From the IMG/VR virus record IMGVR_UViG_3300043418_000205, positions 1 through 27,737 of that record: a DNA stretch of 27,737 bases; one strand, written 5' to 3'. Every line of letters begins with the position of its first letter. The stretch's first letter is position 1. Position numbers and translations under genes: made by a program. The stretch comes from a virus. Shown piece by piece: positions 3,826-18,336 of the stretch. Below the pieces are notes generated by a model. It had not been told where the DNA came from and ran no database searches. It worked only from the letters and a program-made list of their open reading frames with translations.

Positions 3826-5685
3826 TTAGGGCGCGTAGGCAAGGGCGCTGACAAGCTCGCGCGCCGCCACGGATGCGGATGTCGTCACGGTGCCCGCGAT
3901 GATCTCGTCTTCGTAGAATTCGTGATACCAGATGTTGGCAGGCAGACCGGCGCCGGTGCCGCGGCCTTCGTCGTATACGATCGCCACCTTGGATCGGCCG
4001 CTGGTGACATCGATCCACGAAACCGCATCGGGATAGCTGGTGGGCCAGTTGGGCGATGTGCCGCTGGCGCTTTCGACCACCAGCAGGCTGCCAAAGGTCG
4101 CCGTCTCGTCCTGTGAAATCATGATTCCCATGGCTCGCCGGTTCGGGCTGGCCTGCGTGTTGCCCACGGTCAGGATGTTGCCCATCGCCGTGCGGATCAC
4201 CCGGCGGCGCACCGGCGCGGAATTGCCATTGAACTTGGCGGTGGCGTTAGCCAGCGCGGTCCAGCTGATCGTGCCATCATCCTGGTTCGTGCCATAGGTT
4301 TCGCGCACGCCCTGCAAGGATCGCGTGATCGCCCACCAGTCGGCGCTGGCCCCCAGCGCGCGCGACAGCTGCACGATCTGCGGTTCGGTATAGGTTTCCT
4401 GCGCCGGGTCGCTTTCCTTCGGCAGCACCGTCAGCGCCTCGATAAAGGGTACGTTCGGCGTGCCCTTCGTCACCAGCCGGGCCAGCCGCGCGCCCGGCGT
4501 GGCATAGCGCGAACCCCACGATGTATAGTCCGCGCTCCAGTAGCCCGATCCGGTCGTGTATCCGGTCCACGGGATATAGACCGGCAGCCAGAATTCGCCG
4601 TTCACGGGCAGGCCGGTGGCGGCAAGGCCATACGTCAGGAAGGCGGGCGTGGTGAAAACCAGCTTGCTGCCATCGGGCGCATCGGGGTTTTCCAGCCACG
4701 AAACATAGATGCCCTGCTTATAGCTTTCGGTGGTCTTGCCCATCGCCAGAAACGGGAAGAATATGCCGACACGGCCATCCACGATTTGCAGCATAGGGTC
4801 CGCGATGCGGCCATACGAGGCGCTGGCAACCACCTGCGCCACTTCCTGCCACGTTCCGCCGCCTACCGGGCGCCGCATGATCGAAACATAGCTGTCCGGT
4901 CCTTCAGCCTGCGAATAATCGCCGCCCAGCACCCGGCTTGCCGCGCTGAAGGATGCGTACATGTAGCGCCCGCTGCGCGTCATGGTGGGGCATTGCTGGT
5001 GCGTGCGCAGGTTCTTGGGTCGCATGGCCGTGCCCTGCACGATCATGGGCGCGATGCCGGCCGCCTGCCCGATCTGCTTGGCCCGCGTCGGCCGCGCAAA
5101 CCCCAGCACGCCCCCGCGCGACACGATCGAATTCGCCACGCTGGTTTCATCGGCCGCGCGCGCCAGCGACATGCGCAGCACGCCGTCCACGCTGTCGTAC
5201 CAGAATCCGGGGATGCCCCAGGCGAACCGCGTGGCACTCGGCGGGGCAAAGATCACCTGCCCGTCGAACACCTGCGAACGCTCGCTGGCCGTCTTGACCG
5301 AACGCACATGCACGCGGTCCAGCGCGGCAAGGTCGCGCACCGCCACCGGCTCCAGCAGCATCTGGCCCGTCAGCGTGTTTACGGTGAAATAGGTCGTGCC
5401 CTTGGTCCCATCCGCCGCAACGGAAAAGATCGCCAGCGCGCGCGATTTGCCCGATGCGATTTCCATCAACATCGGGCCGCCATCGGCGCCCAGCTGCGCG
5501 CCGCTGTTGCCCTGGCGCGGGCTACCCATCACGGCCGTGGCCACCGTTGCGCCGGCCGATGCGGCCAGCGCGGCGGCGGCGGCCTGCGCTGCCGCGGCGC
5601 GCTGCGCCGCATTCTCGGCCACGCTGTTCGCGCCAAAGCCAACGGCATATTCGCGCCCGCCGAAGGTGATGTTGATTTCCGCCAT
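3826..5685 (-). CDS. Sialidase-like beta-propeller tail fibre or tailspike
   Basis: The 619-residue protein starts with a short MAEINITFGGREYAVG segment and an Ala-rich helical linker (residues 22-50), which may attach it to the tail. Residues about 225-600 look like a sialidase/BNR-type propeller: a degenerate Asp-box (SQDETATF, 524-531) and a late YPDAVSWID...KVAIVYDEGR segment (551-575) resemble the corresponding parts of exo-sialidases. It may bind or trim a surface glycan, but I cannot identify a full set of catalytic arginines, so a binding-only role is possible. The ATG at 5685 overlaps the upstream stop (TAATG). Confidence 0.65.
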   Translation of the reverse strand: MAEINITFGGREYAVGFGANSVAENAAQRAAAAQAAAAALAASAGATVATAVMGSPRQGNSGAQLGADGGPMLMEIASGKSRALAIFSVAADGTKGTTYFTVNTLTGQMLLEPVAVRDLAALDRVHVRSVKTASERSQVFDGQVIFAPPSATRFAWGIPGFWYDSVDGVLRMSLARAADETSVANSIVSRGGVLGFARPTRAKQIGQAAGIAPMIVQGTAMRPKNLRTHQQCPTMTRSGRYMYASFSAASRVLGGDYSQAEGPDSYVSIMRRPVGGGTWQEVAQVVASASYGRIADPMLQIVDGRVGIFFPFLAMGKTTESYKQGIYVSWLENPDAPDGSKLVFTTPAFLTYGLAATGLPVNGEFWLPVYIPWTGYTTGSGYWSADYTSWGSRYATPGARLARLVTKGTPNVPFIEALTVLPKESDPAQETYTEPQIVQLSRALGASADWWAITRSLQGVRETYGTNQDDGTISWTALANATAKFNGNSAPVRRRVIRTAMGNILTVGNTQASPNRRAMGIMISQDETATFGSLLVVESASGTSPNWPTSYPDAVSWIDVTSGRSKVAIVYDEGRGTGAGLPANIWYHEFYEDEIIAGTVTTSASVAARELVSALAYAP

Positions 5686-6095
5686 TATACCAGCCCCATC
5701 AGGTTGACCGCACCGCCCCATAGCAGTTCCTGCGTGCCACCCGATGGCGTCAGGAACATCATATAGGCGAAGGTTTCGACGCCATTTCCGTCGGTATCGG
5801 TCGGCAGCGCGGCCGTCTGCGTGCCGGTCAGGCTGATCGACCACCGCGTTTCACCGATGCCGGATGTGCCGCCCGTGGGATCATACGTCAGCGCGCCCAC
5901 GGTAAAGCTGGCCAGCACCGCCCCGCTGGCATCCGGGCTGACACGGATCTGCCCGGTCAGTGTGGCCCCGGTCCAGTCGCCCGGCAGGTTGATGCCCGCC
6001 TGCCACGGCTTGCCCCGCACCATATCATCGATCGGCGCAGGGCCTTTCCCGGCTGCGGCAAGCTGCCGCAACCAGTCTTCGAATGTCGTATCCAT
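5685..6095 (-). CDS. Ig-like phage tail-fibre accessory protein
   Basis: This 136-residue protein has a short helical N-terminus (TTFEDWLRQLAAAGK) and then an all-beta domain with the layout of the small immunoglobulin-like domains common among phage fibre genes: WTGATLTGQIRVSP, a central SISLTGTQTAALP strand pair, and a final ELLWGGAVNL strand. It lies between the glycine-rich fibre and the sialidase-like protein and is coupled to the latter by TAATG. It may be a fibre adaptor or baseplate component. The ribosome binding site is weak. Confidence 0.55.
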   Translation of the reverse strand: MDTTFEDWLRQLAAAGKGPAPIDDMVRGKPWQAGINLPGDWTGATLTGQIRVSPDASGAVLASFTVGALTYDPTGGTSGIGETRWSISLTGTQTAALPTDTDGNGVETFAYMMFLTPSGGTQELLWGGAVNLMGLV

Positions 6096-6110
6096 GCCGT
6101 ACCTGCCCGT

Positions 6111-7289
6111 TCAGAAGTAGTTGAAAACCACCACGATGCCCGCCGCGCCGTTGCCGCCTCCGCCGCTGGTGCCCACGCTGTCCACCGATGCGCCGCCGCC
6201 GCCGCCACCGCCGCCATATGTCCCGCCGGCGCCGCCTGCGCTGGCCGCGCCGGCCGTGCTGGCCGCGCCACCGCCGCCGCCCGTGCCGCCGCTCGGCCGG
6301 TTTGCCGTGACCGACGTTCCCGCCGCGCCGGGCGATGCCCCGGTCACGTTGGCCGCGCCGATCGCGCCCGCGCCGGATCCGGCCGTCTGCGCCGCATCGC
6401 CCGTCGTGATCGATCCGCCGCCACCCCCGCCCGATGGCGCGAAGGTGGTCACGCTCACGGCCGCCGCCGCCGCCGTGGTGACGTTGGTGGTGCCGCCTGC
6501 GCCGCCGGTATCCACACCTGCGCCGCCGCTCGCAGCCGATAGCGCGGCTGCCGCCCCGCCCGATCCGCCGGTGCCGCCACGGGCATAAACATGCGTGCCA
6601 AAGCTCGATGTGGTGCCGTTGTTGCCGGCCGTCCCGTTTGTGCTGTTCGTCGCCTGTCCGGTTGCGCCAGTGCCACCCGTGCCCACGGTAACGGTTTCGG
6701 TTGATCCCAGCAGCGCCGCCTGAATTTCCATGTCGCTGCGCGCGCCGCCCGCACCGCCGCCGCCGCCGCTGCGCGCGGTGGTCGCCGCGCCCTTGCGCCC
6801 TGATCCGCCGCCGCCGCCGCCACCGATGCAAACTACCTTCACCGCCGTCAGGCCGCTGCGCTTCGTCCACGTGCCGCCACTGGTGAATACGTCCACCACC
6901 ACCGGCGATGCGTTCGCGCCACCCGGCGCCACGTAATCCGTGCCCGCTACCGCCGCGCTCAATGCGCTGCCGCTGCTCTTGATCAGGCCGGTCACCGCCG
7001 CCGCCACACCCGCCACCGCGCCCGATACCGTCGTGGGCGTGAACCCCAGCGCCCCGGTCACGTCCGAATAGGTCAGCGTGACCGCGCCCGTGCGGGTGTT
7101 GAACGATGTCACCCCGCCGCCCACGAAATAGGGCAGGCTGTTGTAATGCGTGACGCCGTCGCCAAACTTGAACTTGCCGGTATCGGTTTCCAGCACCAGT
7201 TCGGCCAGCAACGGGATTTCGTTGACGCTGGCCAGGTCGGCGGCCGTGCCGCGCCGGGCCTGCCACCGGATCGTGACTGTCGTGGTCAC
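6111..7289 (-). CDS. Glycine-rich tail fibre with Mtd-N-type N-terminus
   Basis: The 392-residue protein begins with a domain like the N-terminus of the Bordetella phage major tropism determinant and many fibres: RRGTAADLASVNEIPLLAEL then a GKFKFGDGVTHYNSLPYF motif. A linker with VAPGG and an SGGTWTKRSG strand follows. Residues about 150-385 are dominated by glycine runs (several of 5-8 Gly) with regular Ala/Thr spacing, as in adhesins that fold as polyglycine-II helices. The end, GIVVVFNYF, is typical of this class. The protein likely contacts the host receptor. The coding DNA is rich in GGC/GGN repeats. The ATG overlaps the upstream stop (ATGA). Confidence 0.78.
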   Translation of the reverse strand: MTTTVTIRWQARRGTAADLASVNEIPLLAELVLETDTGKFKFGDGVTHYNSLPYFVGGGVTSFNTRTGAVTLTYSDVTGALGFTPTTVSGAVAGVAAAVTGLIKSSGSALSAAVAGTDYVAPGGANASPVVVDVFTSGGTWTKRSGLTAVKVVCIGGGGGGGSGRKGAATTARSGGGGGAGGARSDMEIQAALLGSTETVTVGTGGTGATGQATNSTNGTAGNNGTTSSFGTHVYARGGTGGSGGAAAALSAASGGAGVDTGGAGGTTNVTTAAAAAVSVTTFAPSGGGGGGSITTGDAAQTAGSGAGAIGAANVTGASPGAAGTSVTANRPSGGTGGGGGAASTAGAASAGGAGGTYGGGGGGGGASVDSVGTSGGGGNGAAGIVVVFNYF

Positions 7290-8860
7290 GGTGCCACCAC
7301 CCCGCCGTCATAGACCACGCCCGTGGGCAGGGTCCAGTATCGGGCGATCGCATCGCGGTCGCTGGCCGTCATGCCGGTTGAACCGCTTGGCGGCACGCCC
7401 GTGGCCGCCAGCGCCGTCGTGTGCTTGCTCGCCGTTTCCATGCGAAACGTCAGTTCCACGCCAAAGGTTGCCGGGTCCAGCTTGCGCTCCATCACGATCG
7501 CATCCCCCGAAAGCCCCAGCGACGGGATATTCAGCGTGTAGCATTCGCCCGGCCGCGCCATCCGCCACTGCGGTTGCAGCGGCAGCACGATCGGCGCTTC
7601 CTCCCGGCTGTTCAGCACCTTGTAGGTCGCCAGCTGCGCCGCCTGGTTCACGTTCTTCACCAGATTGAACGGGTATTCCTGCCGGCGCTCCTCGCCATCC
7701 GCCGTCACAAGGCTGGACAGCACGATCGGTTCAGCCGCCATCAGTTCCCAGTTCGAACCGGGATCGATGTACTTCGGCACCACCGTGTTGAACCGCGCCG
7801 TATAGGGCTGCATTTTCGTGGTCGAAAGCTCGCCCTCGCCAAGGTCGGCTTCGGTGATCGTGCCCAGCGACACGCGCGGCGCGTCATAACGCACCGACAA
7901 CAGCCCGCCCGAAAAACACGGCTCGCCACCGCCCGCGATTGCAATGTCCTTAAGGTTGCTCCAGCGGTCGCCAGGTTCGAACACCCGGCCAAAGACCTTC
8001 CAGGCATTCGCATCGCAGACATTCGCCCATGCTGCGATCGTCGCCCAGTCGATGCCGTTGGCCGGAAAGCCGCACCCCATCACCTTTTTGCCGTTCTGAT
8101 ACCGGCCGAAAGCATAGGTGCCGAAATGCAGCGCCGGGTTTTCAGACCATGTATACGTGCTTTCGGTGCCCAGGCGGTGCGCGCCCGATCCGCCGGGGAA
8201 CGTGCTGTCCAGCCGCGGATCATAGACCTTAACCCACTTGCCATAGGCGCCCATCACCGGGATGCCGCTGGCAAAGCGCTTGCCATCCTTGTCAAACATC
8301 ACGTTCCAGCCGATCGCCGCGCAGCCCGACAGCTTGTAAGAGCTGGTCCAGCCGGGCGCCCCGGCCCAGTTCAGCGCCAGCGCGCTGGTTTCCGGGCACG
8401 CGCCCAGCTGCGAAGACGTATAGGCCCACCCGGAATAGTAGCTGCTGATCGCCGCGAAATCGAAATAGGGCGTGATCGATTCCACCGGCCCATGCCCCGA
8501 ATACACATCCACCAGCCACCGATATGGGTTCGGCACATCGCCCACCGTACCGCCATAGGCGCGGTCATAGCGGCGCACCCCGCCGATATAGCCTTCGCCC
8601 ATGGGATACGGGCGCGGCGGGTCAACCTGCACGATCACCTGGCTAACCGATCCGCGCGCAGGCGGTGGTTTTGCCAGCAATTGCGCCCCGATGCTGGCCA
8701 CGCTGGCGGCAATTCCGGCCCACGTGGCAATGGTGGTCAGGCTGGCCGTGATGCCCGTGGCCGAAGCAAACGCCGCGCCCAAACCAGCCGCTGCGCCCGC
8801 CGTGGCGATGATGGCCACCGCACCCGCGATAACGGCCACCACCTTCAGAACCTTGCTCAT
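7286..8860 (-). CDS. Large tail-tip protein (J/hub-like)
   Basis: This 524-residue protein probably forms the tail tip or central hub, playing the role of the lambda gpJ group. The N-terminus has a long hydrophobic, Ala-rich region (about residues 5-65) before VSQVIVQVDPPRPYPMGEGYIGG. The middle is rich in aromatic residues and cysteines; the C-terminal part (LGEGEL, QPQWRMARPGECYTLNIPSL, LDPATFGVELTFRMET) resembles phage tail-tip domains found directly upstream of fibre genes. The ATG at 8860 overlaps the previous stop (ATGA) and has GGGGG about 11 bases upstream; an ATG at 8869 would put that site too close. Fold assignment is by order and style, not by a diagnostic motif. Confidence 0.68.
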   Translation of the reverse strand: MSKVLKVVAVIAGAVAIIATAGAAAGLGAAFASATGITASLTTIATWAGIAASVASIGAQLLAKPPPARGSVSQVIVQVDPPRPYPMGEGYIGGVRRYDRAYGGTVGDVPNPYRWLVDVYSGHGPVESITPYFDFAAISSYYSGWAYTSSQLGACPETSALALNWAGAPGWTSSYKLSGCAAIGWNVMFDKDGKRFASGIPVMGAYGKWVKVYDPRLDSTFPGGSGAHRLGTESTYTWSENPALHFGTYAFGRYQNGKKVMGCGFPANGIDWATIAAWANVCDANAWKVFGRVFEPGDRWSNLKDIAIAGGGEPCFSGGLLSVRYDAPRVSLGTITEADLGEGELSTTKMQPYTARFNTVVPKYIDPGSNWELMAAEPIVLSSLVTADGEERRQEYPFNLVKNVNQAAQLATYKVLNSREEAPIVLPLQPQWRMARPGECYTLNIPSLGLSGDAIVMERKLDPATFGVELTFRMETASKHTTALAATGVPPSGSTGMTASDRDAIARYWTLPTGVVYDGGVVAP

Positions 8861-12667: not shown

Positions 12668-12901
12668 TCATTCTCCGCTTTCGTTGGTAGCGAGCGCGCC
12701 GCCGGTCACCACCACCCACGCGCGCATGGCAGAGCGCATTTCCTCGAATGACTGACGTGGTTCGGACTTTTCAGGCCCAAACCATCCCAGCACCTTGGGA
12801 AGGTCTGGCATTTCACGCTGGCGCTGCATTAGTGCGCCGATCCATCCGCCGATTATGGCGTTCGTCCTGTCCAGTTCTGCGCGCAATTGCAGGCCGTTCA
12901 T
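12668..12901 (-). CDS. Tail assembly chaperone, second domain (TAC_6-like)
   Basis: Annotated alone, this is a 77-residue ORF from an ATG at 12901, but that ATG has no ribosome binding site. The same frame reads upstream without a stop at least to 13051 and there encodes DWEGLIADWTAAGQPLSLFW and DITPREFVAVMNG, the hallmark of the phage tail assembly chaperone family PF09550 (TAC_6, formerly DUF2376). The real domain therefore starts upstream of the ATG and is most likely made as an extension of the gene at 12976-13413 by -1 frameshifting. It would recruit the tape measure to the tail tube, as lambda gpGT does. Independent translation from 12901 would cut through the conserved motif. Confidence 0.75.
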   Translation of the reverse strand: MNGLQLRAELDRTNAIIGGWIGALMQRQREMPDLPKVLGWFGPEKSEPRQSFEEMRSAMRAWVVVTGGALATNESGE

Positions 12902-12975
12902 AACCGCTACGAATTCGCGCGGGGTAATATCCCAGAACAGCGACAGCGGTTGCCCGGCCGCCGTCCAGTCTGCGA

Positions 12976-13413
12976 TCAGGCCTTCCCAGTCCGTCTGCGC
13001 GGACGGGTCGGCCGGGGGCTTTCCCCCTTTGCAGGATCCGCCACCGCCTCCTTTTTTACCGGGGATGCGGCAGACAGCGCTTGCCCGATCAGACTGGCAA
13101 CCTCGGCCAGCCCGATCTCCTGCACGATCTCGTCCACGGTTGCGTCATCCGGAGCCTCAACGATGCCACACCCGAACAGCATGGCGATTGATCCGGACAT
13201 CAGGTGGACCGGAGTCATCGCCTGCTCAACGGCAGCTTCATCGCCATCGGCGATCAGTTCAACCGTCAGCTGGGGAAAGGCGCGAAGCACGGCACCGCCA
13301 AAGCCGCAGCCGAATTCGCCTTCGACGCGGAATTTCTGGCGGTGCCCGTAACGGATTGTCCAGCCGCGACCAAGCGCGACGAATCCGATAGAACCGATCG
13401 GGGAGCCGGTCAT
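12976..13413 (-). CDS. Tail assembly chaperone, gpG-like short form (GTA gp10-like)
   Basis: This 145-residue protein sits between the major tail protein and the tape measure. Residues 1-110 (RGWTIRYGHRQKFRVEGEFG, DDATVDEIVQEIGLAEVASL) resemble the GTA gp10 / TAC_11 type (PF11836), which act as tail assembly chaperones. The residues after about 110 are low-complexity, Pro/Arg-rich and poorly structured, as expected for the 0-frame tail of a frameshifting gene. A slippery heptamer lies at codons 119-121. The ATG at 13413 is one base from the previous stop. This is the abundant product; the fusion is made at a lower rate. Confidence 0.8.
   Translation of the reverse strand: MTGSPIGSIGFVALGRGWTIRYGHRQKFRVEGEFGCGFGGAVLRAFPQLTVELIADGDEAAVEQAMTPVHLMSGSIAMLFGCGIVEAPDDATVDEIVQEIGLAEVASLIGQALSAASPVKKEAVADPAKGESPRPTRPRRRTGKA
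13051..13057 (-). promoter_or_regulatory. Programmed -1 ribosomal frameshift site, A AAA AAG
   Basis: In the frame of the 13413 gene the codons are GTA AAA AAG GAG, so positions 13057-13051 read A AAA AAG, the same heptamer that drives -1 frameshifting in E. coli dnaX. Slipping back one base enters the frame that runs open to 12668 and carries the TAC_6 domain. The predicted fusion spans 13413-12668 with 121 + 127 = 248 residues. A possible hairpin (GGGGG/CCCCC, minus strand 13027-13014) lies 23 bases downstream, farther than usual for a stimulator. No strong upstream Shine-Dalgarno is seen. Confidence 0.82.
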
Positions 13414-13414
13414 A

Positions 13415-13846
13415 TCAGATTGCCGTCTCGGTCACCGGGCCATCAGGCTTGCCGGTGAAGGTGTACGGCACAAGGCCTTCGGGCGTCACATCGCCCACTT
13501 CCATCGAAAGCGGGATGCAGGTTCCGGCATACTTGTAGGCACCGGTAGCCCCGCCGCTGGCACCCGGGATCGACATTTCGAACGCAGTGGATGCGCGCGC
13601 GGCAATGCGGCCGATCGCCAGCAGGTACGTTGCGTCACCCGCGTTACAGTTGCCCTTTACCACGATGTCCGAAACCTCGATCAGGCCCGGGATAAAGGTG
13701 CGCGTGCCACCCGTAATCCCGTGGTTCGTGGTTTCCACGGCCGAACCCTTGGGCACCGGCGGGGTCACGCCCGTCACTTCGCCGAAGGCGGTCAGGGTCG
13801 TGCCATTGTGGAGCTTGAAGGTCGCCCCCAGGCCCAGCTTTGCCAT
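13415..13846 (-). CDS. Major tail (tube) protein
   Basis: The 143-residue protein is probably the tail tube subunit, which stacks as rings around the tape measure. Typical features are the N-terminal KLGLGATFKLHNGTTLTAFG, a central EVSDIVVKGNC segment, and the end VPYTFTGKPDGPV, which follow the two-sheet tail-tube pattern with a short helix (YLLAIGRIAARAS). A strong AAGGAG site precedes the ATG. It lies between the tail terminator and the tail assembly chaperones, the canonical place. Confidence 0.82.
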   Translation of the reverse strand: MAKLGLGATFKLHNGTTLTAFGEVTGVTPPVPKGSAVETTNHGITGGTRTFIPGLIEVSDIVVKGNCNAGDATYLLAIGRIAARASTAFEMSIPGASGGATGAYKYAGTCIPLSMEVGDVTPEGLVPYTFTGKPDGPVTETAI

Positions 13847-15239: not shown

Positions 15240-15880
15240 CAGCCAAAGCTCCGGATCCGGTAATCCTCGGTCAGTTCATCGAATGAAAGGCGCATCTGCG
15301 CCGACATCGTGCCCGGCTGAACCGCCTCGCGGTTTTCGTACCAGTGCGCCACCAGCAGCTGCACGGCCAGCAACAGGTCCGCCGGCACCGCGGCGGCATT
15401 GGCATAGCCGGCGGTGAAATCGATCGTTATCGCGCCATCCTGCCGCCGCGCGATCGGCCATGCCGTGGCCCATGCGGGCGAAAGGCGGGCGGGCGAAGGC
15501 GGCGCGCTCTTGTCCAGCACATAAGCATTGCTGGCCAGCGTCTGCACCGTGCCTGCCGCGTCCAGATAGGACAGCGCCGAAACTGCGGTAACCGGCCCAC
15601 GCATCAACAGGATGCGCCCACGCCACCCGCTGGCGCGCGCCGGGAACAGGTCCAGCGCCTGCCGCCAGGTGCAGCTGATCAGCGAAAGCCCGGTGCGCCG
15701 TTCCACCATCCGCTGCGCTGCCATGATCAGGCGCGTTATCAGCAGGTCTTCGGCGGTTTCATCCTGATCGACCTTCAGCCAGTCTTTCGCCTCAGCCAGC
15801 GAAACCGCCATCGTGGCGGCGCCGGTGGGCGCTACGGACCATGTGATTCCGGCTGCGCTGTCCAGATAGCTTTCGATCAT
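15239..15880 (-). CDS. Head-tail connector protein
   Basis: This 213-residue protein resembles the phage gp6-like head-tail connector family (phiE125 gp8 type). It has SLAEAKDWLKVDQDETAEDL and LITRLIMAAQRMVERRTGLS near the N-terminus, the YLDAAGTVQTL turn in the middle and DFTAGYANAAAVPADLLLAV near the end, all typical. A strong intrinsic terminator ends 14 bases before the ATG, and no clear Shine-Dalgarno lies between them, so expression of this and downstream genes is probably limited relative to the capsid. Confidence 0.85.
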   Translation of the reverse strand: MIESYLDSAAGITWSVAPTGAATMAVSLAEAKDWLKVDQDETAEDLLITRLIMAAQRMVERRTGLSLISCTWRQALDLFPARASGWRGRILLMRGPVTAVSALSYLDAAGTVQTLASNAYVLDKSAPPSPARLSPAWATAWPIARRQDGAITIDFTAGYANAAAVPADLLLAVQLLVAHWYENREAVQPGTMSAQMRLSFDELTEDYRIRSFG

Positions 15881-15894
15881 GGCAACAGGTCCGG

Positions 15895-15929
15895 AAAAAA
15901 CGGCCGGCGCAGGTCGAATTGCGCCGGCC
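15895..15929 (-). terminator. Intrinsic terminator between capsid and connector modules
   Basis: On the minus strand GGCCGGCGCA, an 8-base loop, and TGCGCCGGCC form a perfect 10-bp GC-rich stem (15929-15902), followed by one G and six T (15900-15895). This is a textbook rho-independent terminator pointing in the direction of transcription. It sits inside what is otherwise one co-directional structural operon. Confidence 0.85.
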
Positions 15930-15954
15930 AGTTGGGGAGGGAACTTTCAGGGAT

Positions 15955-16206
15955 TCAGGCGCTGGCCTGCGCGGCGGATTCTGCCTCGGCATACTTCACG
16001 GCCGCCGCATCATCGTCGGCCCAGCCTTCAGCCACGGCCGCCTTCGCGTCGGCGGGCGTCAGGGCGACCACCGAATTGCACGCATATTCGCCCTGATCGG
16101 ACAGAACGCGCACCTTCACGGTCTTGGTCTTGGCAACCTTTGCAGCCTCGGCAGCGGCAGCGGCAGCAGCTTCGGCTGCCAGTTCTTCAGCAGTCTTTTC
16201 GGCCAT
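15955..16206 (-). CDS. Small Ala-rich head-region protein
   Basis: This 83-residue protein has an Ala/Glu-rich N-terminal helix (residues 1-25), then TVKVRVLSDQGEYACNSVVA and a helix with TPADAKAAVAEGWA. The second part resembles a small domain seen in phage head-completion genes and in the 45-residue mini-protein at 14755. Its position just after the major capsid gene suggests a head decoration or minor head component, but this is inference. The ATG has AAAGGAT upstream. Confidence 0.65.
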   Translation of the reverse strand: MAEKTAEELAAEAAAAAAAEAAKVAKTKTVKVRVLSDQGEYACNSVVALTPADAKAAVAEGWADDDAAAVKYAEAESAAQASA

Positions 16207-16241
16207 CGGGCCATCCTTTCATCTTGGGGGGATGGTTCGGC

Positions 16242-16276
16242 AAAATGAAGGGCGGCCACCTTTCGATGAACCGCCC
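16242..16276 (-). terminator. Terminator-like hairpin after the major capsid gene
   Basis: On the minus strand GGGCGG (16276-16271) and CCGCCC (16255-16250) form a 6-bp GC stem with a 15-base loop, followed by TTCATTTT. It begins 32 bases after the capsid stop. The loop is long and the T-run is broken, so it may only attenuate or stabilise the capsid mRNA. Confidence 0.4.
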
Positions 16277-16307
16277 CTCACCCCCCGAACAGGGTTTCCG
16301 GCGTCCC

Positions 16308-17576
16308 TTAGGTCGCGGAATTCTGGTAATACTTGATCGGATTGGTGCCGGCGTCCAGCAGGCGCGCATCGGCGCGCATGAACATGCCGAAGCCAACCTG
16401 GCCAAGGTCGGCATAGCGCTCGACCAGACGGATCATCGTCACGTCGCGCACGATGCGGATCTTATACTTCTTGAATTCACCGAACAGGATCGACTTCGCG
16501 TTCGCCGCCATGACCGGCATTTCCTGATTCACCTTATAGGCATAGCCCAGCAGGGTATCAGGGATGTTCACGCCAACGCCGCTTTCATAGCCCGGCAGCC
16601 AGATGGGACGGCCCGAGCTGTCCTTGATCTTGCGAACCACCTTCACGCTGCTGTCGTGCATCATGAACAGGGCGCCGCGGCGATAGGCCGGATCGACCGC
16701 GTGAACCAGGTCCACAAGGTCGTCATAGATCACGCTAACCGTCTGGCCGGTGGTGCCCACCTTGCCCGAAACCGCGTCGGTGATCACGCCACGGGGCTGG
16801 CTGGTGCCGGTGCCGTTGGTAGCATGATCGTTCAGCGCCCAGGCGACCGAACGGCCCAGCGCATCGGCAATGAAGCCTTCGCCGAACGCGCTGTCTTGCA
16901 GGAATTCCCACGAAACCGGCAGCATCGGCGAACGGTAGGTATAGGCCCCCAGGTTCGCCACGCCGAAGGGCGTGCTGCTATCGGTGGTGAAGCTCGAACC
17001 TTCACCGATAATCGTGGCCTTGACCGCGGTATAGTTGAACGTCGGCATCGGCAGCGTGGCGCCGTTGTCGGTGTACATCACGTCGGCCACTTCGGTCATG
17101 CCGCCGAACTGCTTCAGCGCCACTTCCAGCTGGTTCAGGAACCCCTGCGGCACGGTGTAACCGCCGACGTTGCTGGTGCCGGCCGCAAAGGCGCGCTGCT
17201 CCTGGTTGGACAGCTGCGCGCGGTGCGCAACCATCAGCTGGCGCTCTTCGGCTTCCAGCCCGTCCAGCCCGTTGCGCAGGAAATTGCGGAACACCGAACC
17301 ATACCGGGCGGACGCATCATCGCGGCCTTCGATCTGGTCGTCGGCCGGGCGGCCACCGGCGCGCAGCTCGGTCGGTTCCGGACGGGTCAGCGTGGACAGC
17401 TTGTCCAGGCGGCGGATTTCGCTGTCGATACGATCGACCTCGGCTTCCATATTCGCCCAGTTCTGGGTTTCGTCAGCATTGAAGGCGCGTTCCTCCTTCG
17501 TTGCCAGGTCGTTCAGGTCGTGCATCTGCACGGCCACCTTCGCGCGCCGGGCGCGCAGTTCAGCCAGCTTATCCAT
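16308..17576 (-). CDS. Major capsid protein, HK97 gp5 fold
   Basis: This 422-residue protein is the HK97-type major capsid subunit (PF05065). The first 60-70 residues (DKLAELRARRAKVAVQMHDL, EAEVDRIDSEIRRLDKL) form the charged coiled-coil delta domain that serves as scaffold and is normally removed by the prohead protease. The rest has the family sequence AGTSNVGGYTVPQGF, LPVSWEFLQDS, FGEGFIADALGRSVAWALND, TGTSQPRGVI and the end FGMFMRADARLLDAGTNPIK. The ATG at 17576 is chosen over the frame opening at 17597 because AAAGGAG lies 7 bases upstream of it. It follows the protease and precedes a terminator-like hairpin. Confidence 0.95.
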   Translation of the reverse strand: MDKLAELRARRAKVAVQMHDLNDLATKEERAFNADETQNWANMEAEVDRIDSEIRRLDKLSTLTRPEPTELRAGGRPADDQIEGRDDASARYGSVFRNFLRNGLDGLEAEERQLMVAHRAQLSNQEQRAFAAGTSNVGGYTVPQGFLNQLEVALKQFGGMTEVADVMYTDNGATLPMPTFNYTAVKATIIGEGSSFTTDSSTPFGVANLGAYTYRSPMLPVSWEFLQDSAFGEGFIADALGRSVAWALNDHATNGTGTSQPRGVITDAVSGKVGTTGQTVSVIYDDLVDLVHAVDPAYRRGALFMMHDSSVKVVRKIKDSSGRPIWLPGYESGVGVNIPDTLLGYAYKVNQEMPVMAANAKSILFGEFKKYKIRIVRDVTMIRLVERYADLGQVGFGMFMRADARLLDAGTNPIKYYQNSAT

Positions 17577-17664
17577 AGTCTGCTCCTTTCCGGCCAAAAG
17601 CGCCCGGGTCGCGGTGCCGGATGGGCCGCGGCGGGTGTTCGAAACTGCTCGAATATGGGCGGGG

Positions 17665-18336
17665 TCAGGCCCCGATGATCTTCAGCTTGCGCGCGCGGGC
17701 ATCGGCATCGCGGCGCGCGCGGTGGCTGGACGTTTCGCGCTGGCGCAGGCCACGCTGTTCATCCACCCAGCGGCTGCGCATGTCGCACGTGGCATCGGGA
17801 TATGCCGGGTAGGTGACCGGCGAAACGTCGAACAGCTGGCTGATCTTGCGGATTTCGCGCAGCCAGGTGCCATCCTCGTTTTCAATCCATGCCGCTTCTT
17901 CCACGGTGAACGCAAAGCTGGATTGCGTCACATCGCCGCGGTCGATCGCGCAGGCCAGCGCCTCGGCCGTATCGGTATCGGGCAGGTCCACTTCGTAAAA
18001 CAGACCCACATCGTCCAGCGTCAGGCGCAGCGTGCCCGCGATCGAACGGCCCAGGATCAGGTTCGGATCGTGGTTGAACAGCGCGCGCACATCGTCTTCC
18101 AGACGGCCATCGAACGCACCCGGCAGGATCGTTTCGCGGAAATCCCACATCAGTTCGGACAGGACATTGTATTTCGCGGCATAGCCACGGATCGTCACCA
18201 CCTGTTCCACGCTGTCGGGCGCTTCGGCCGGCATTTGCCCTTCGGCAAGGCGGCGCTCGCGCGACCAGCGGCGCACCTCCATCCGGCCAAGGTCGAACGG
18301 ATTGGCACAGTCGAAACCGTTCAGCGTGCGGGGCAT
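17665..18336 (-). CDS. HK97-family prohead protease (S78)
   Basis: This 223-residue serine protease probably matures the prohead by removing the capsid delta domain and itself. It shows the S78 motifs: IRGYAAKYNVLSE, FRETILPGAF, the catalytic His in FNHDPNLILGRS, and the catalytic Ser in TQSSFAFTVEE, followed by FDVSPVTYPAYPD. The tail after about residue 190 is basic. The ATG at 18336 has GAAGGAT upstream and lies 4 bases after the portal stop; the frame opens to 18483 but those residues are a Pro/Arg-rich shadow of the portal gene. Confidence 0.93.
   Translation of the reverse strand: MPRTLNGFDCANPFDLGRMEVRRWSRERRLAEGQMPAEAPDSVEQVVTIRGYAAKYNVLSELMWDFRETILPGAFDGRLEDDVRALFNHDPNLILGRSIAGTLRLTLDDVGLFYEVDLPDTDTAEALACAIDRGDVTQSSFAFTVEEAAWIENEDGTWLREIRKISQLFDVSPVTYPAYPDATCDMRSRWVDEQRGLRQRETSSHRARRDADARARKLKIIGA

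Follow-up and report, generated by a model that had tools for sequence, protein, structure and literature searches.

A lambda G/GT-like pair of tail-assembly chaperones with a predicted −1 frameshift in a viral genome, and candidate frameshift sites in alphaproteobacterial GTAs

Long-tailed dsDNA phages widely conserve the G–T frameshift of their tail-assembly chaperone genes (PMC5009743), and a frameshifted chaperone is annotated in 2,397 of 3,679 SEA-PHAGES genomes (PMC10885494). In lambda, G and T lie between the genes for the tail tube and the tape measure protein, the −1 slip occurs close to the end of the first frame, and the second domain has no start of its own. The Rhodobacter phages RcCronus and RcOceanus, which are alphaproteobacterial and have gene transfer agent (GTA)-like tail modules, carry an annotated joined chaperone at the equivalent place, and a paper on R. 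capsulatus phages calls the chaperone frameshift usual (PMC8601537). In RcGTA-type GTAs, the two domains are gp10 and gp10.1 (PF11836 and PF09550), and the Paracoccus GTA, like most GTAs that we sampled, gives gp10.1 an overlapping start of its own. GTA particles have very short tails, which are encoded by genes of the host itself. Outside tails, the heptamer A AAA AAG is that of E. coli dnaX, in which the frameshift product is the shorter one. A AAA AAG is highly slippery in E. coli (PMC5009743).

Here we describe a chaperone pair from a viral stretch of 27,737 nucleotides (the window; IMG/VR record IMGVR_UViG_3300043418_000205, positions 1 to 27,737) and follow its layout into related phages and GTAs. 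From its sequence, we interpret the two as tail-assembly chaperones of a siphophage, paired as in lambda G/GT, that would be expressed by −1 frameshifting, a reading to which we assign a probability of roughly 0.93.

The predicted slip site and the two chaperone frames

The genes of the window run in the order terminase–portal–protease–capsid–connector–tail, and the chaperone pair occupies the textbook position between the tail tube and tape measure genes (Table 1), as in lambda. Two further parts of the window hold long frames without PHROGs matches. A 599-aa open frame on the plus strand (15879–17678) lies opposite the major capsid gene (16308–17597, minus strand); rather than a gene, it is probably a shadow frame that GC-rich DNA produces. 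Two minus-strand frames after the tail fibre gene (3826–5844, 672 aa, and 6025–7353, 442 aa), which have no match at E 1e-5, are possibly tail tip or receptor-binding genes.

Table 1. Features of the chaperone locus in the window, and junctions of the GTA survey
Feature	Positions	Strand	Remarks
Tape measure protein, 734 aa	10462..12666	−	Directly downstream of the chaperone frames; top PHROGs matches are tape measure proteins of phages
−1 frame extension, 127 codons, TAC_6-like	12668..13051	−	Lambda T equivalent; predicted fusion of 248 aa
PF09550-matching stretch, extension residues 39–63, FWDITPREF motif	12863..12937	−	E 0.039, under the cut-off; motif columns also conserved across the relatives
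First ATG of the extension	12899..12901	−	Within the conserved motif; no ribosome binding site; implausible start
Candidate downstream stimulatory RNA structure	12950..13050	−	Weak: −49.3 kcal/mol, z −1.66
Gene A, zero-frame product, 145 aa	12976..13413	−	GTA gp10/TAC_11-like; lambda gpG equivalent; profile match to GTA gp10
Slippery heptamer A AAA AAG, in phase	13051..13057	−	Zero-frame codons read directly
Major tail (tube) protein	13415..13846	−	Directly upstream of gene A; weak match (E 1e-3) and position
C CCT TTY-type junctions, GTA survey			L022, L023, L025, L031, L035, L047, L048, L051, L144–L146, L168–L173

An earlier sequence-only reading had placed A AAA AAG in phase at 13057–13051, which is exact to the base, and had described a −1 frame open to 12668, with a fusion of 248 residues; the frames, read directly in the window, agree, and the −1 frame is open already from 13144 to the TGA at 12670–12668. 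AAAAAAG occurs once on gene A's strand across the whole window, and its in-phase occurrence in gene A is the sole one among the 6,793 codons of called genes. Elsewhere in the window, the −1 frames of other genes hold 11 open runs of at least 127 codons. Since GC-rich DNA gives so many of these runs, a long open −1 frame is weak evidence by itself, and the case for a frameshift therefore rests on the homology of the −1 frame. Downstream RNA structure at the window's heptamer is unremarkable and not convincing, and there is no Shine–Dalgarno-like motif upstream of the heptamer, a point on which the window differs from dnaX.

An alternative is that the two frames are separate genes, with the second initiated on its own or coupled translationally to the first, as in the Paracoccus GTA, in which an ATGA overlaps the gp10 stop. 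Such an arrangement is common: a start lies close to the gp10 stop, in many cases in exact overlap with it, in 107 of 149 alphaproteobacterial gp10/TAC_6 pairs. However, the −1 frame of the window has no ATG, GTG or TTG ahead of the ATG at 12901, and this codon falls inside a conserved motif and, as the earlier reading had also noted, lacks a ribosome binding site: no Shine–Dalgarno-like sequence stands 5′ of it (upstream letters GAATTCGTAGCGGTT). Seven relatives likewise have no start near the gene A stop, and those GTA and prophage loci that do bear a start mostly do without a heptamer (in phase in 15 of 107, versus 39 of the 42 without a start). We consider separate genes very unlikely for the window.

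In the preferred frameshift reading, most ribosomes would translate gene A to its stop at 12976, yielding the shorter chaperone, and a small share would shift by −1 on A AAA AAG, with tRNA-Lys re-pairing from AAA-AAG to AAA-AAA, to yield the A–B fusion. By analogy with lambda, A would coat the tape measure protein, the TAC_6-like B domain would recruit tail tube subunits, and both products would leave before the tail is completed. The practical point for phages is one of annotation: ordinary gene calling would cut the second chaperone domain at 12901. This was anticipated from the sequence and can be seen in relatives, as gp13 of phage Rivra and gp014 of W2 are annotated from internal ATGs, truncating their second domains.

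Homology and layout in related phages

In tblastn searches, most of the length of the −1 frame matches phages of Caulobacter, Agrobacterium and Paracoccus (E 3e-6 to 6e-3), and the Caulobacter and Agrobacterium matches begin at extension residue 12, well 5′ of the internal ATG. The Agrobacterium phage Rivra also has a match to the gene A protein at the equivalent place. At the sequence level, the proof that the −1 frame is real is this homology from well upstream of position 12901 together with the layout conserved in relatives. As had been claimed, the core of the TAC_6-like domain is encoded ahead of that ATG. The PF09550 alignment of the window's extension alone falls below the cut-off (14.8 versus 23.4 bits). 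The gene A protein alone gives no match to PF11836 (Phage_TAC_11).

Alignments with relatives add to these single-sequence searches. In profile–profile comparison, domain 1 aligned with its relatives matches real GTA gp10 at 98.1% (E 6.7e-14, 103 columns), and domain 2 matches real GTA gp10.1 at 91.6% (E 8e-7) over only 24 columns that cover the W-x-x-TP motif alone. PF11836 is matched by 6 of 11 aligned relatives at E up to 0.1 (best 9e-6), PF09550 by 6 of 11 aligned sequences at the same limit, and phrog_19318 by all 11 sequences of the second-domain alignment A3. A profile search for a solved structure related to domain 1 found none. The names TAC_11-like and TAC_6-like are reasonable, the second being less well supported, and the proposal that a frameshift layout joins a GTA gp10-like to a TAC_6-like domain gains support from the comparison, for domain 2 over those few columns.

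Because the chaperone sequences themselves found no relatives in viral contigs, the tape measure was used as the query instead, which brought up 12 viral-contig loci and one in Sphingopyxis flava; a tail fibre query against genome contigs had no match. In every one of the 13 loci compared, among them the window, the second frame overlaps the first at −1, although some of these are closely related (L006 and L011) and the independent number is perhaps ten. A heptamer of the form X XXY YYZ is in phase in 11 of the 13 (15 sites), as against 2 sites in 2 loci for each of the other phases, and is absent from the frame overlap of L003 and L015. No start codon lies near the gene A stop in L003, L004, L005, L007, L013, L015 or L016. 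The exact letters of the heptamer, whose conservation had been proposed as a check, are not kept, and what is kept is an in-phase slippery heptamer: A AAA AAG in the window and L010, G GGA AAC in L004, L006, L011, L013, L014 and L016, A AAG GGC in L007, G GGC CCT in L005 and C CCC CCG in L002.

These relatives also bear on two explanations that dispense with ribosomal slippage. First, the frames meet at a run of six As in a sequence taken from IMG/VR, and a base lost or gained there through sequencing or assembly error could split one continuous gene. The −1 layout recurs, however, in 12 other loci, complete phage genomes among them, which use different heptamers, mostly not long homopolymers. 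Because the letters of the heptamer change among relatives (G GGA AAC, A AAA AAG, C CCC CCG), we regard an error in the A-run as very unlikely. Second, A runs can cause RNA polymerase to slip in bacteria, and slippage on the run at the window junction would produce a mixed mRNA in place of a ribosomal shift. Six As are short for this, and G GGA AAC, the commonest heptamer in relatives, contains no long homopolymer, so that a ribosomal mechanism covers all loci; transcriptional slippage is less probable again than an independent start, if more credible than a sequencing error.

Locus L010 (2935–3506), like the two loci that lack a heptamer, speaks against the frameshift reading. Its tape measure is the closest to that of the window (61%) and it has A AAA AAG in phase, yet TAC_6-like similarity was not found in its −1 frame; its second domain may have been exchanged.

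Set against described systems, the chaperone pair is a genuine and unremarkable case of the lambda G/GT scheme. Unlike lambda, its domains are of TAC_11-like and TAC_6-like families and its heptamer is that of dnaX, not the lambda site. In RcCronus, unlike in the window, the in-phase heptamer close to the first frame's end is G GGA AAC (2515 in L178), and the protein sequences of RcCronus and RcOceanus differ from those of the window. The suggestion that the layout newly ties gp10/gp10.1 to the G/GT scheme does not stand, given that GTA-like Rhodobacter phages were already annotated with joined chaperones and that their frameshift had been called usual. With RcGTA-type GTAs the window shares the order of the two domains, of which the first is recognizable by profile comparison over 103 columns and the second over the W-x-x-TP motif. 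An RcGTA-type GTA would have a tape measure of about 200 aa within a GTA cluster, and the much longer protein of the window places it outside that type.

The gp10/gp10.1 junction in GTAs

For the GTA survey, PF09550 matches were collected in alphaproteobacterial genomes and the upstream gene was found with a gp10 profile, giving the 149 pairs introduced above, a mix of GTA clusters and prophages. The start codon close to the gp10 stop is often ATGA or GTGA, and the Paracoccus denitrificans GTA (order shared with Rhodobacter) is of this overlapping-start kind. The 42 pairs without a TAC_6 start codon look different: 41 have the second frame at −1, and 38 of the 39 with an in-phase heptamer are among these. 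Together, the start-less loci hold 58 heptamer sites in phase versus 10 and 11 in the other two phases, and their gene bodies show no phase bias (11, 9 and 12). The statement that the domains are separate genes in GTAs thus holds for Paracoccus and for most GTAs sampled, and a sizeable minority has the frameshift layout.

In 17 start-less loci, a C CCT TTY-type heptamer lies in phase just 5′ of the TAC_6 domain, ending in TTC in 15 loci, TTT in L022 and TTG in L048. On the gp10 tree, these loci are spread over separate parts. Most have a tape measure frame of 175–245 aa, the size found in GTAs (exceptions are L048, at 399 aa, and L169, which a contig end truncates), a size class judged by tape measure length and, for a subset, by gp12; family PF09343 of gp12 lies just downstream in G005, G010, G127, G141 and G144. 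The G010 cluster (L183) has the RcGTA gene set of portal, protease, capsid, gp8-type connector, TIGR02217, TIGR02218, TIGR02219 and GTA_megatron (1,843 bits), and the tape measure of this cluster stays under the RcGTA_tape cut-off. In L035, L051, L146 and L172, an in-frame stop one to three codons 5′ of the heptamer leaves no room for a start upstream.

The C CCT TTY sites resemble dnaX in having an upstream Shine–Dalgarno-like motif. A match of at least 5 nt, 7–18 nt upstream, occurs in 15 of the 17 loci, compared with 7.8% of control positions and with 3.3% at equal distance from the stop in start-codon loci, in a test that was devised after the first sequence had been seen and in which related loci do not count as independent. 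For −1 shifts, the Shine–Dalgarno distance described as working is 9–14 nt (PMC5009743), a range that part of these spacings fall outside. The Phe codon of the conserved GTA FPW motif was also considered as a test and rejected: TTT is used in all C CCT TTY loci with the motif, but also in 15 of 23 start-codon loci.

Taken with the tree, these sites suggest that a minority of alphaproteobacterial RcGTA-type GTAs probably still make gp10–gp10.1 through a programmed −1 slip at C CCU UUC/U that a Shine–Dalgarno-like motif further upstream stimulates, and that the layout has probably switched repeatedly between frameshift and overlapping start (ATGA/GTGA); on the weakly resolved gp10 tree, we count at least 14 changes of layout overall and 7 among GTA-size loci. 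No description of GTA gp10/gp10.1 frameshifting was found in open-access full text, and the possible GTA frameshift is a more interesting lead than the window pair itself. Comparing relatives that differ in layout makes it testable whether GTAs need a fixed low chaperone ratio or can do with separate genes.

Finally, two groups of loci show further variants. Within 43 bases 5′ of its TAC_6 domain, L030 carries G GGA AAG three times in phase, and its relatives L065 and L066 have one such heptamer each. In the clade of L067 and L069–L074, an in-phase A AAA AAA lies 60–87 nt ahead of the gp10 stop and several members also have an ATG overlapping that stop, so that frameshift and start-codon expression may coexist there.
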